Origin: a virus
Reading direction: 5' to 3' (one strand)
DNA: 29,709 nucleotides
Virus record (IMG/VR): IMGVR_UViG_3300025301_000075
Location: 1-29,709 of that record
The position numbers were made by a program, and so were the translations under genes. Of the stretch, positions 12,018-18,658 are shown piece by piece (position 1 is the stretch's first letter; every line of letters starts with the position of its first letter). The notes under the pieces are model-generated. The model searched no databases and was not told the origin of the DNA. It saw only the letters and a list, made by a program, of their open reading frames with translations.

Positions 12018-13543
12018 AACTCGTAATACAACTCGCTGTTAGGTTCCATGATATGGAGGGATTGTTTAGCCCTCGTAACTGCCACATAAAAAACCCTATG
12101 CTCTATGGAAGGGTTTTGGAGGTACGTTTTATAAGCTGCGTAGGATAGTTCCGGTATCACCAGAACATTATCACATTCACCCCCTTTCATGGAGTGAATG
12201 GTACTGACTTTAATTCTTGGATGTTTGACATTGTCCCCCCGTCTTAAAGCGTTAAGTATATAGTTCTTGGTATCAATATCAATCTTGGTCAATGCTTCAT
12301 GCCACCGGATACCTAGTTTCCACCTTAAACCAAAACGATCAGCCGCCATATTAATATCAATAAGTTCTTCCTGATTTGAATCAAGGAAGGTACGACAACG
12401 AGGACCAAATCCTTTCACATAATCCTCCCCGGAAGTCATCTGCATGTACACACTTCTGAGTTCAGCAATTGAAATCTGATCTCCTTTTGCCAGTTTCTCC
12501 CAGGAAATGATGGCGTCATATATTCTGGAATCAATGCTGGGACGGCCATGACGACTGTAGACCCACCCTTCTTCTCTTAGTTTGTTGGCGTATTTTGTAG
12601 CAATATAATTTGTCCTCGCAAGAATGCACCATTCTCCCTCATCAAAAGGAACATCCCAAAAGTTCTGGTAATAATGAACCGAACCCTCTTCGTCTCGAGG
12701 AGACCACTGTTTGGGTGCTCTTCCCTCAATACGGGACACAATACGCTGTGCTTCCTCCCACACTCTACGAGGGAGTCTATAAGACTGAGTCAAAACATGC
12801 TTCTTGTCTGTAGCCGTTAAGAAAGCGTTAACGTCTGCACCCTGGAAATTCATAATGGCTTGGTCATCATCGCCAGTAAAAACCTGAACTTCAGGAGTGA
12901 GACGGAGTACATCAATCATCTCCCACTGAAGGGTAGATAAATCCTGCGCCTCATCCACAAACAAGGCATCTATATCAAGTGCCTCTCCCCTTGCTACAAA
13001 ATTTTCAATCATATCAGTGAAATCGATTTTCCGGCGTACCTTCTTGTAATTTAGATACGCATCTATCAGACGGTTTAATTCAGACCAGTACAAGTCATAG
13101 TTTTCCGACTGCCGGTAACTTTCTTCCAGCGAAATACGAAGGCTACGGGAGAGCTGATATATGTTTAAATATACATCCCCTTGGGAAAACCCAAGGATAT
13201 CAAAATCACTTTCAAGACCATTTTTCTTTGATTCCGTAAAAAGAAGCCCTACTGACTTCCCCAAGGTTTTTAAATCTGAGCCACGCATAACATTGTCAAC
13301 CTTATATCCTCCACTGCGAAAAGCCATGGCGTGAAGCGTCTGGAAATGAGGAAGACTGTCTTCTTCAAGACCCCAGTCCTTGCATACTCGTTCACGGCTT
13401 TCTTGTGCTGCCTTACGTGTGAAGGAGACACAGGCAATTCTTTCAGGAGGGATGTTGTCCTCCAGGCAGTTGCGTATGAGGTTGGAAAGGTTTTGGGTTT
13501 TGCCGGTTCCCGGTGGCCCCAGATAAGTTATGGGGTCTGTCAA
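12014..13543 (-). CDS. UvrD/PcrA-like superfamily 1 DNA helicase
   Basis: An ATP-driven helicase of 509 residues for phage replication or recombination. Motif I GPPGTGKT (9-16), Ia VSFTRKAAQE, II DEAQD (197-201), III TGDDDQAIMNFQGA (from 223), IV QSYRLPR, V STIHSMKGGE and VI YVAVTRAKQ are all present, so the enzyme looks intact. The start is TTG at 13543, overlapping the primase stop as TTGA. No ATG exists between the upstream in-frame stop at 13562-13564 and the Walker motif, and GAGGAAG lies a few bases upstream, so the TTG start is well supported. It is shorter than UvrD/PcrA (about 700 residues), as usual for phage versions. Confidence 0.92.
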   Translation of the reverse strand: MTDPITYLGPPGTGKTQNLSNLIRNCLEDNIPPERIACVSFTRKAAQESRERVCKDWGLEEDSLPHFQTLHAMAFRSGGYKVDNVMRGSDLKTLGKSVGLLFTESKKNGLESDFDILGFSQGDVYLNIYQLSRSLRISLEESYRQSENYDLYWSELNRLIDAYLNYKKVRRKIDFTDMIENFVARGEALDIDALFVDEAQDLSTLQWEMIDVLRLTPEVQVFTGDDDQAIMNFQGADVNAFLTATDKKHVLTQSYRLPRRVWEEAQRIVSRIEGRAPKQWSPRDEEGSVHYYQNFWDVPFDEGEWCILARTNYIATKYANKLREEGWVYSRHGRPSIDSRIYDAIISWEKLAKGDQISIAELRSVYMQMTSGEDYVKGFGPRCRTFLDSNQEELIDINMAADRFGLRWKLGIRWHEALTKIDIDTKNYILNALRRGDNVKHPRIKVSTIHSMKGGECDNVLVIPELSYAAYKTYLQNPSIEHRVFYVAVTRAKQSLHIMEPNSELYYEL

Positions 13544-15080: not shown

Positions 15081-15102
15081 GCCCCCGCCTTTCAACGGGG
15101 GC
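15081..15102 (-). terminator. GC-rich hairpin between SSB-like and primase genes
   Basis: GCCCCCG at 15081-15087 pairs perfectly with CGGGGGC at 15096-15102 across an 8-base loop. It lies in the 39-base gap between the SSB-like gene and the primase gene, the only long gap inside this leftward operon. On the transcribed strand the hairpin is followed by AGTCTTC rather than a T run, so it is more likely an attenuator, RNA-stability or processing element than a full terminator. It could give more SSB-like protein than primase from one message. Confidence 0.5.
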
Positions 15103-15876: not shown

Positions 15877-16443
15877 TCATGCTCCTTTTATCTTGGCTTT
15901 TTGTCCAATGTGCGCATTAAAAATCTCAAGATCAATTTCCTGACGGTTCTCCACACGCTCCCGAATAAGCTTCTTCAGCGTCATGGGTTCCACCCAAGTC
16001 TTGGCACTCGTATCAAAACCCTTTTCTTCAAGATCCTGTTGCATTGACTTAGCGCGATTGTCTTCAGTGACACCAAATGAAACGCTAATTTCATTCTTTA
16101 TAAAATCAGAGGCGCCGATATCACGCAAATGAGAAAAAGCTACATCTCTCTGTAAAGGGTCTTTAGGCAACGTGCCAAAAACAAAAGTTGAAAGGCTAAC
16201 AGAATGCCCATCGACTTCTACCTTGTCCATTCCAACTTCCTGCATCTTTGCAGGGATTAGTTCGAACAGATAACGATCCACTTGCTTTTTTAAAGTCTTT
16301 GCTGCTTCTTCTGCTTGGGTAAAAGCTTTCTCCGTAGACAACGCTTGTCTAATAAGATCAGATAGTTCTCCACCGGCTTCAGTAGTAAGACCTTCAAAAG
16401 CACTTGCATCAGCTTTAATGCTCTCTAAAACATCTTCGTTCAT
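15877..16443 (-). CDS. Conserved phage protein next to SSB gene, function unknown
   Basis: A 188-residue protein. The N-terminal third is helical and rich in Glu/Ala/Lys (EEAAKTLKKQVDRYLFELIP), then KVEVDGHSVSLSTFVFGTLP, FIKNEISVSFG and a conserved C-terminus EPMTLKKLIRERVENRQEI followed by LEIFNAHIGQKAKI. I recognise this C-terminal pattern from many phage genomes, usually beside SSB or recombination genes, with no agreed function. AGGAG precedes the ATG at 16443, and only three bases separate its stop from the SSB-like start. A replication-associated role is inferred. Confidence 0.7.
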   Translation of the reverse strand: MNEDVLESIKADASAFEGLTTEAGGELSDLIRQALSTEKAFTQAEEAAKTLKKQVDRYLFELIPAKMQEVGMDKVEVDGHSVSLSTFVFGTLPKDPLQRDVAFSHLRDIGASDFIKNEISVSFGVTEDNRAKSMQQDLEEKGFDTSAKTWVEPMTLKKLIRERVENRQEIDLEIFNAHIGQKAKIKGA

Positions 16444-16466
16444 ATTAACGTATCTCCTCGTCAGGT

Positions 16467-16790
16467 TTAAAGTTCTTCAATGCCGCCACGGACACTTACC
16501 CGCACAGGATAATAAGTCTTCTCCATCTTATCCCACTTGAGTACGTTAACTCGTCCTTGGTTAGCATTTGCGGCCACCGCGAATGCGATACCGATTATGA
16601 CTGGGTCTCCCATCGCCAATAACCAATCATCATCACAAAACCCCTTGAGCTTTCGCCTGAGAAGCGAAACAACTCGTCCGGGGTTCATATGAATCTGATC
16701 GAAAGGAGAGGCGAGAGGAACAAGATCACCCCATTGATTTGCCGATACGATATCGACCTTGGGATTTTCCTGTGTAACGTACACAGTCAT
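16467..16790 (-). CDS. Conserved phage protein, first gene of the leftward operon
   Basis: A 107-residue protein with a good ribosome site (AAAGGAG) before the ATG at 16790. Characteristic stretches are LVPLASPFDQIHMNPGRVV, LLRRKLKGFCDDDWLLAMGD, PVIIGIAFAVAANANQGRV and NVLKWDKMEKTYYPVRVS. The pattern recurs in diverse tailed phages at the head of replication operons, but the function is unknown. Its leader would be the long structured region at 16791-17150. Confidence 0.7.
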   Translation of the reverse strand: MTVYVTQENPKVDIVSANQWGDLVPLASPFDQIHMNPGRVVSLLRRKLKGFCDDDWLLAMGDPVIIGIAFAVAANANQGRVNVLKWDKMEKTYYPVRVSVRGGIEEL

Positions 16791-16810
16791 TAAGTTCTCC
16801 TTTCTATCTG

Positions 16811-16946
16811 GATGCTGTCTAAAGCAGCAATCCAGTTAATAAAATTTTCTTCCCTAAACTTCGGGTTAGTAAAGGGACCCCAGATGAAAAGGACTAGAAA
16901 ACATCCAGGGTCCCTTTATTTTGCGCCTCTTACCGCACTTAACCCA
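16811..16946. repeat. Structured direct repeat, copy 1
   Basis: First of two imperfect copies (second at 16992-17140). Elements in order: a small hairpin TGCTG/CAGCA (16813-16829), then CCAGTTA, a 33-base stretch identical in both copies (16856-16888), a long hairpin, and ACTTAACCCA at the end. The long hairpin has arms 16871-16886 and 16902-16917: 14 of 16 positions pair, around a 15-base loop, followed on the plus strand by ATTTTG, a terminator-like shape for rightward transcription. Read leftward, it lies in the leader of the replication operon. Confidence 0.8.
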
Positions 16947-16991
16947 ATCAAATGACCATAGGAGAACGCAAGGTCTTCGTAGTTCTTGATA

Positions 16992-17140
16992 ACTGCTGAT
17001 ACAGCATCCAGTTATAAACTCCCTGCCAAACTTCGGGTTAGTAAAGGGACCCCAGATGAAGAAGATTCCAGAAAAAACATCTAGGGTCTCTTTACCGCGC
17101 AGTTTAAGGGTCCTAACTCAAAAGTGCGCTACTTAACCCA
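16992..17140. repeat. Structured direct repeat, copy 2
   Basis: Second copy, offset by 172 bases. The small hairpin is TGCTG-ATA-CAGCA (16994-17006), the identical 33 bases are 17028-17060, and the long hairpin has arms 17043-17058 and 17078-17093 with 15 of 16 positions able to pair (one G-T). No T run follows. It ends with ACTTAACCCA (17131-17140). Both hairpins are kept despite base changes in the second arm. AGGGTCC at 17107-17113 could pair with the left arm as an alternative, as in attenuators. Confidence 0.8.
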
Positions 17141-17157
17141 TAGTTGAAGTATTGAAT

Positions 17158-17186
17158 AATATAGCAGCTTATTTCGGTATTGCAAA
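17158..17186 (-). promoter_or_regulatory. Candidate sigma70 promoter for the leftward replication operon
   Basis: On the minus strand TTTGCA (17186-17181), a 17-base spacer and TATATT (17163-17158) form a fair sigma70 promoter: 4 of 6 and 5 of 6 matches. Transcription would start near 17150 and give a leader of about 360 bases carrying both structured repeats before the first gene at 16790. It shares its -35 bases with the rightward promoter, so the two probably compete. Confidence 0.45.
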
Positions 17187-17208
17187 TATAAAATCATGGT
17201 ACTATACT
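17180..17208 (+). promoter_or_regulatory. Candidate sigma70 promoter for the rightward helicase block
   Basis: TTGCAA (17180-17185), 17-base spacer, TATACT (17203-17208): a good sigma70 promoter with a near-consensus -10. The predicted start near 17215 is only about 4 bases before the helicase ATG at 17219, and no Shine-Dalgarno sequence is visible, so the message would be nearly leaderless. Confidence 0.6.
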
Positions 17209-17218
17209 CCCATCATTC

Positions 17219-18658
17219 ATGGATTACACATTCAAGACACCCCCCTACGAGCACCAGGCTACTGTCCTGGCTACATCTTGGAGTCAGACCAATTGGGCAT
17301 GGCTCATGGAAATGGGAACCGGAAAATCCAAGGTTTGCATAGATAATGCCGCCATGCTTTTTGAAAAGAAAGAGATCAACACGCTTATTGTAATTGCTCC
17401 AAAAGGTGTTTACCGCAATTGGGCGAACCTTGAAATTCCGGCGCATCTCCCTGACAGAATTGATGCCAATACCGTTGTCTGGAACCCCGCCAATACCAAA
17501 GCCAACAAAGAAACTCTTATAAATTTTCTGGAATCTTCAGGGGGTCTCAAAATCTTTCTTATGAACGTCGAAGCCTTGTCTACTTCTAAAGGGAAAAAAT
17601 ATTTGGAGGCTCTTCTTCAACGCTCCACCTCCCTTTTAGCAGTAGACGAATCAACTACTATCAAGAGTCCAAAGGCCAAGCGAACCAAGACGCTTATAAA
17701 GCTGGGGTCACTCGCCAAATATCGGCGCATCCTCACAGGGTTTCCTGTGACGCAATCACCTCTGGATTTGTGGGCGCAGTGCAGGTTTATGGACAAGACA
17801 TTATTGGGGGATTGCGGGGACAACTTTTTCCAGTTCCAGTATCGCTACGCCATCATGAAAAAAAGTAGCGTAGGCACCCATACTTTTAATCGTGTTGTAG
17901 GTTATCGAGATCTCGAGAGATTATCAGAACTTCTGAAAAAGTTCTCCTCCCGCATAACAAAAGATGAATGCCTGGATTTGCCTGAGAAAGTTTATGTTCA
18001 AAGAAGTATTCCACTTACCCCAGATCAATCCAGAATTTATAATGAACTAAAGGAGTTTGCATTAGCCAATCTGGATAATGGGGAATTTATGACGGCTCCT
18101 AATGTCATGACCCAATTGTTGAGAATGCAACAAGTTCTGTCAGGCCATACCAAAACCGATTATGGCGAACTGGTGGAAATAAAAGACAATCGGCTGGATG
18201 AACTCCTCTCCTGTCTTGATGAGATGGAAGGTAAGACCATCATCTGGGCGCGGTTCCGTTATGACGTGAAACGCATTACAAAAGCGTTGCTTGAAAAATA
18301 CGGCGATGGAAAAGCGGTTGATTACTTTGGTGACACTTCCGATGATGATCGTGTTGAAGCCGTTAATAGATTTCAAAACGGAGACGCTCTCTTCTTTGTG
18401 GGCAACCCTCAGACGGGAGGGTACGGGTTAACACTGACCGCTGCCCAGAACGTGATTTACTTTTCAAACAGTTTCGATCTCGCTGTGCGGATGCAGAGCG
18501 AAGACCGGGCGCACCGCATAGGCCAACGGAACACTGTTACTTATGTGGATTTAATTGCGGAAGGGACTATTGACGAAAAGATAGTCAAGTCTCTCCGTGC
18601 CAAACTCAACATCGCCAGTCAGGTAATGGGCGAAGAATTTAAGGAGTGGTTAAGATGA
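17219..18658 (+). CDS. SNF2-type superfamily 2 helicase/translocase
   Basis: A 479-residue DNA-dependent ATPase. N-terminal Q-like PPYEHQ, motif I MEMGTGKSK (30-38), Ia IAPKGVYRNW, motif II VDEST (142-146, Ser replacing the usual A/C), III LTGFPVTQSP. The C-terminal lobe has IIWARFRYDV, VGNPQTGGYGLTLTAA (V) and QSEDRAHRIGQ (VI), the last typical of SNF2 proteins. Phages use such enzymes in replication, recombination or origin opening. The ATG at 17219 is the only possible start after an in-frame stop and lacks a ribosome site. It begins the rightward block and ends in an ATGA overlap. Confidence 0.92.
   Translation: MDYTFKTPPYEHQATVLATSWSQTNWAWLMEMGTGKSKVCIDNAAMLFEKKEINTLIVIAPKGVYRNWANLEIPAHLPDRIDANTVVWNPANTKANKETLINFLESSGGLKIFLMNVEALSTSKGKKYLEALLQRSTSLLAVDESTTIKSPKAKRTKTLIKLGSLAKYRRILTGFPVTQSPLDLWAQCRFMDKTLLGDCGDNFFQFQYRYAIMKKSSVGTHTFNRVVGYRDLERLSELLKKFSSRITKDECLDLPEKVYVQRSIPLTPDQSRIYNELKEFALANLDNGEFMTAPNVMTQLLRMQQVLSGHTKTDYGELVEIKDNRLDELLSCLDEMEGKTIIWARFRYDVKRITKALLEKYGDGKAVDYFGDTSDDDRVEAVNRFQNGDALFFVGNPQTGGYGLTLTAAQNVIYFSNSFDLAVRMQSEDRAHRIGQRNTVTYVDLIAEGTIDEKIVKSLRAKLNIASQVMGEEFKEWLR

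Follow-up and report, generated by a model that had tools for sequence, protein, structure and literature searches.

A tandemly duplicated, probably structured leader upstream of a phage replication operon

The replication operon of the phage studied here very probably begins with a structured leader that has been tandemly duplicated and that occurs patchily among its relatives, an anatomical reading to which we give a probability of roughly 0.85. For what the leader might do, protection of the mRNA or tuning of its translation has about an even chance of being the correct mechanism, as judged by analogy with known 5' stem-loops. The case for a leader is built on position, recurrence, and strand evidence, all of them read from sequence, and we infer both the transcription start and the protective or translational mechanism. 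The window, that is, the whole stretch of DNA analysed (29,709 nucleotides), is a 29.7 kb virus record, and its closest relatives were found within IMG/VR.

Results

Promoters and extent of the leader

To the left of the element lies a minus-strand operon encoding Pam3-type gp32, gp33, and gp34, a primase, a UvrD-type helicase, and DNA polymerase A, and to the right lies a plus-strand gene for an SNF2-type helicase. The nearest named phages by operon and helicase proteins include DSL-LC04, 023Pt_psg01, and the Pelagibacter phages HTVC027P and HTVC023P, none of which reaches 60% identity, and judging from these relatives the host is presumably marine. A tRNA-Sec call at 12869-12964 falls inside a helicase gene and was taken as spurious. 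The following features delimit the leader.

16467-16790, minus strand: first gene of the replication operon (Pam3_gp32-like, phrog_5888)
16796-16805, minus strand: ribosome-binding site AGAAAGGAGA of the first operon gene, mostly unpaired in the predicted fold
16791-17151, minus strand: the operon mRNA's predicted 5' leader, with about 361 nt between the start deduced from the promoter and the start codon
17158-17163, minus strand: -10 hexamer TATATT of the replication-operon promoter, spacer 16
17180-17185, no strand assigned: palindromic -35 hexamer TTGCAA, common to both divergent promoters
17203-17208, plus strand: -10 hexamer TATACT of the divergent helicase promoter, spacer 17

The shared -35 hexamer is conserved in L229, L231-L236, L239, L270, and L296, and relatives keep the minus-strand promoter (TTGCAA-16-TATATT, 17185-17158) at equal spacing. 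The duplicated element fills the gap from this promoter to the first gene's ribosome-binding site. With 361 nt between the predicted start and the start codon, we predict that the replication-operon mRNA carries the entire element in its leader. This agrees with the earlier note, where a leader of about 360 bases had been proposed for the leftward reading. The leader contains short open frames, and no sign of their conservation as leader peptides was seen. One of them, beginning ATGCTGTATCAGCAG.. and 19 codons long, is located at about +143 from the predicted start with GGGAG upstream, and no counterpart was seen in copy 1.

Two related units with an unchanged core

The element consists of two copies, each predicted to fold into one long hairpin of 17-18 bp, one second hairpin, and one closing helix made of GGGTTAGT and ACTTAACCC. 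Their 33-base core, AAACTTCGGGTTAGTAAAGGGACCCCAGATGAA, is identical at two positions 172 bases apart, whereas no exact repeat longer than 12 bases arose when the region was shuffled 1000 times. Folded as a whole, the region reached a z of -6.5 for the minus strand and -5.8 for the plus strand, and none of 100 shuffles folded as well. The units and their parts are listed from the ribosome-binding site towards the promoter.

16808-16835, minus strand: copy 1 CTGGAT..GCTG/CAGC..ATCCAG hairpin (-13.1 kcal/mol, z -4.2), stopping 2 nt short of the ribosome-binding site
16850-16950, minus strand: copy 1 unit with closing helix, short second hairpin, and long hairpin (-40.9 kcal/mol, z -4.4)
16856-16888, no strand assigned: identical 33-base core, copy 1 (exact-repeat search against shuffles)
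16870-16918, minus strand: long hairpin of copy 1, 17 pairs (67 bits)
16989-17015, minus strand: copy 2 TGCTG/CAGCA hairpin, weak (z -0.6 in operon sense)
17022-17145, minus strand: copy 2 unit, transcribed first, with closing helix, GCGCA/TGCGC hairpin, and long hairpin (-44.4 kcal/mol, z -3.8)
17028-17060, no strand assigned: identical 33-base core, copy 2 (exact-repeat search against shuffles)
17041-17095, minus strand: long hairpin of copy 2, GTAAAGAGACCCTAGATG .. CATCTGGGGTCCCTTTAC (75.5 bits)

The earlier note had described two copies offset by 172 bases with this core, a small TGCTG/CAGCA hairpin, a long hairpin, and a common terminal sequence. The repeat and its core were confirmed, and the small hairpins are present in both copies. 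The long hairpin, of 16 positions in the note, was also found in both copies, at 17-18 bp. The terminal ACTTAACCCA, which pairs with GGGTTAGT of the core as the closing helix, does occur in each copy (16937-16946 and 17131-17140), only with a spacing of 194 rather than 172 because of indels.

The small-hairpin arms at 16801-16818 and 17001-17018 can also pair mutually (18 nt, 89%), giving an alternative long-range fold that extends to the edge of the ribosome-binding site. Further along the window at 15081-15102 (minus strand), between two genes of the replication operon and directly 5' of the primase start codon, lies a second strong stem-loop, GCCCCCGTTGAAAGGCGGGGGC (-19.8 kcal/mol, z -2.6), with the purine-rich AAGGGAAG on its upstream side.

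Pairing, covariation, and strand

On the minus strand, the arms of the copy 1 long hairpin (16870-16886 and 16902-16918) pair at 17 of 17 positions, two of them as G.U, and the equivalent arms of copy 2 at 17 of 18. Changes in the second arm had been taken to keep the pairing and hence to indicate selection on structure. The pairing is indeed retained at most positions, but the changes between the copies are one-sided; the first arm is identical in both, so that there is no two-sided compensation between them. A single two-sided change in the long hairpin (A-U to G-C) appears only in comparison with the related phages L231 and L233. The covariation score of the four sequences did not rise beyond shuffling (81 of 500 shuffles were as high) and thus lends little weight to selection within the element. 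It is for the leader site as a whole that selection on structure finds most of its support: unrelated hairpins recur there in other lineages, and variant loops stay GNRA.

Taken alone, the long hairpin hardly discriminates between the strands, with 66 pairs in the operon sense against 64 in the antisense, and the plus strand of copy 2 folds almost as well as the minus strand. Judging from loop types and wobble-rich stems, we favour operon-sense RNA as the strand that was probably selected.

Relatives with one unit or none

Two relatives with 91% helicase identity (L003/L233 and L007/L231) carry one homologous unit of 134-137 nt at the same leader site, predicted to fold from roughly the second base as far as the ribosome-binding site. 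Equally close relatives (L004, L005, L006, and L008) lack the element, and one of these (L006/L234) has a short duplication in the promoter region (TATTTGCAATACCAAA..). A mere 15-17 nt separate the predicted start from the start codon in L229, L230, L232, L235, L236, and L239, compared with 361 nt here; leader lengths of several distant loci (e.g., L237, L248, and L294) were excluded for doubtful automatic promoter choice. The element is thus patchy between otherwise conserved flanks. Three conspecific contigs are identical over the whole interval and show no variation (a fourth, without the anchor, was left out).

A collection-wide pattern search retrieved the element only in the window phage and the two relatives and in no further phage type. 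When a covariance model built from the four copies was used with cmsearch, these same training copies scored 67-85 bits in the operon sense, and the other matches, at about 30 bits or less, were the reverse strand of the four copies or terminator-like or chance matches. Searching Rfam at gathering and relaxed thresholds gave nothing convincing (the lowest E-value was 0.1, with a score of 19.4 bits where the cut-off is 114), and DNA similarity in phage records gave no near match, only short weak ones.

Unrelated hairpins at the same leader site

In a handful of lineages, hairpins unrelated to the element occupy the interval between promoter and ribosome-binding site (L274/L276/L277, L278/L280/L286, L389-L393, L282-L285, and L021/L024). 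The hairpin of L274, L276, and L277 has the form GTGGTCTGG-GNRA-CCAGACCAC, in which the nine-pair stem is kept and the loops read GCAA, GCGA, or GTGA. Most of this stem is retained in L390, with one two-sided change from G-C to A-U and a second one seen by eye whose columns are misaligned in the count; in these four sequences, neither covariation measure exceeds shuffling. The L282 hairpin folds in the operon sense only (-19.9, z -4.2, against -5.9, z -1.0 in the antisense) because its stem includes many G.U pairs. No U-tract was seen by eye after the homologous or the unrelated hairpins of relatives. Together, the GNRA loops, the G.U-rich L282 stem, and the missing U-tracts favour a structured operon-sense RNA and make a terminator less likely.

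L021 and L024 have, at this site upstream of the helicase start, a structured leader of about 109 nt that is unrelated to the element and contains several stem-loops; its two strands fold about equally. In the more distant relatives L078-L080, other hairpins (e.g., GGGCGCC..GGCGCCC) lie between the helicase and the divergent gene.

Discussion

We propose that the element would act at the RNA level, mainly through its structure and less through its sequence. Stable 5' stem-loops might shield the early mRNA from 5'-end-dependent decay of the RNase E/RppH type and might keep the ribosome-binding site clear, whereby the output of replication proteins would be raised or tuned. Stable 5' stem-loops protect mRNA independently of sequence in ompA and T7 gene 10 (PMC2254391; PMC3997798), and sequence-independent protection accords with the recurrence of structure, but not of sequence, at this site. 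The 5'-terminal stabilising stem-loops of ompA, papA, and the phage T7 gene 10 leader share with our element a stable stem-loop in the 5' untranslated region, here near the 5' end given the start deduced from the promoter, and an open ribosome-binding site; they work without sequence specificity and are known in a phage. The leader described here differs in its length of about 360 nt, in its two related multi-hairpin copies with an unchanged 33-base core, and in that unrelated structures replace one another between lineages, and its effect is putative. A protective hairpin leaves the two copies, the 360 bases, and the unchanged core unexplained; the core and the duplication could be due to a recent duplication event, to gene conversion, or to a factor that binds there. 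Most relatives manage without any leader structure, which counts against protection. Leaders of the L274 type, in which a weak hairpin comes first and the strongest hairpin begins tens of bases from the predicted 5' end, fit poorly to a strictly 5'-terminal model.

The leader of the replication operon might instead be a site where lineages install different structured RNAs, the one found here being a duplicated trans-acting or polymerase-binding RNA, a decoy or a put-like antiterminator, of an undescribed family, which we consider possible but unlikely. The closest alternative in layout is the put RNA of HK022, a cis-acting antiterminator of two stem-loops and about 70 nt downstream of an early promoter (PMC9378689). 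Put RNA binds RNA polymerase at its zinc-binding domain and suppresses termination. By this analogy, each two-hairpin unit would bind the transcribing RNA polymerase and allow read-through of terminators in the 7-kb operon. The likeness lies in the layout: two stem-loops per unit, a leader starting at an early-type promoter as with putL, and two related copies per genome with an unchanged core, resembling the putL/putR pair (PMC9378689). The units here are larger (100-124 nt) and both lie in one leader, whereas putL and putR are on two different transcripts; most relatives have the same operon without the element, other lineages have single plain hairpins at the site, and there is no Rfam match of any kind. 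We consider a put-like function improbable.

We judge it similarly doubtful that the phage makes an RNA decoy or a small RNA, perhaps by processing of the leader. Such an RNA would titrate a host protein or mimic an antitoxin RNA, with its copy number expanded under selection, much as repeats in phage PhiTE can multiply and so imitate ToxI (PMC3475682). The tandem duplication, its unchanged core, and the patchiness among near relatives would suit a decoy, and the PhiTE pseudo-ToxI repeats are likewise phage-encoded tandem RNA repeats of changeable number. Those repeats, however, are pseudoknots of about 36 nt, whereas ours are 172-nt hairpin units with no known antitoxin similarity and no Rfam family, and the terminator scan (loops of 3-8) found no site to end a separate short RNA. 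The pair of free small RNAs and the protein-binding leader suggested in the earlier note are likewise conceivable.

An element acting as DNA is also quite unlikely, whether it had arrived as a small mobile hairpin, is bound by a protein, or belongs to a replication origin within the divergent region. Its patchy presence between conserved flanks and its place in a divergent control region near which the GC skew turns would be compatible with such a role, but the skew follows gene direction and therefore cannot test for an origin, no target-site duplication was apparent by eye, the hairpin occurs nowhere else in this record, and the GNRA loops and G.U-rich stem of sister leaders point to RNA.

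A transcription terminator or attenuator in the leader, on either strand, is disfavoured and in our view very unlikely: the earlier note's reading of copy 1 as a rightward terminator is not supported, as a scan of 16401-17600 for a G+C-rich stem with a U-tract found no intrinsic terminator (loops of 3-8 only), the tails are weak (TTTACT on the minus strand and merely TTTATTTTG on the plus strand), relatives' homologous and analogous hairpins lack U-tracts, and no rightward transcription into the element is known. What had lent this reading some plausibility is that the AAAGGGACCC/GGGTCCCTTT stem recurs elsewhere in hairpins resembling ordinary bidirectional terminators. Outside this phage group, viral-contig matches to the long-hairpin stem pattern look like ordinary short-loop terminators, and there are many matches in genome contigs too, among the matches listed. 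The stem sequence is alike, but the phage element has no U-tract, has a long loop, and sits inside a leader.

The leader of the replication operon is a site, in uncultured marine phages, where RNA structure has apparently arisen, been replaced, and in one case been duplicated, with the promoter and ribosome-binding site unmoved. If the leader does protect or tune the replication mRNA, near relatives with and without it would offer a natural comparison for how RNA structure controls the output of early genes.
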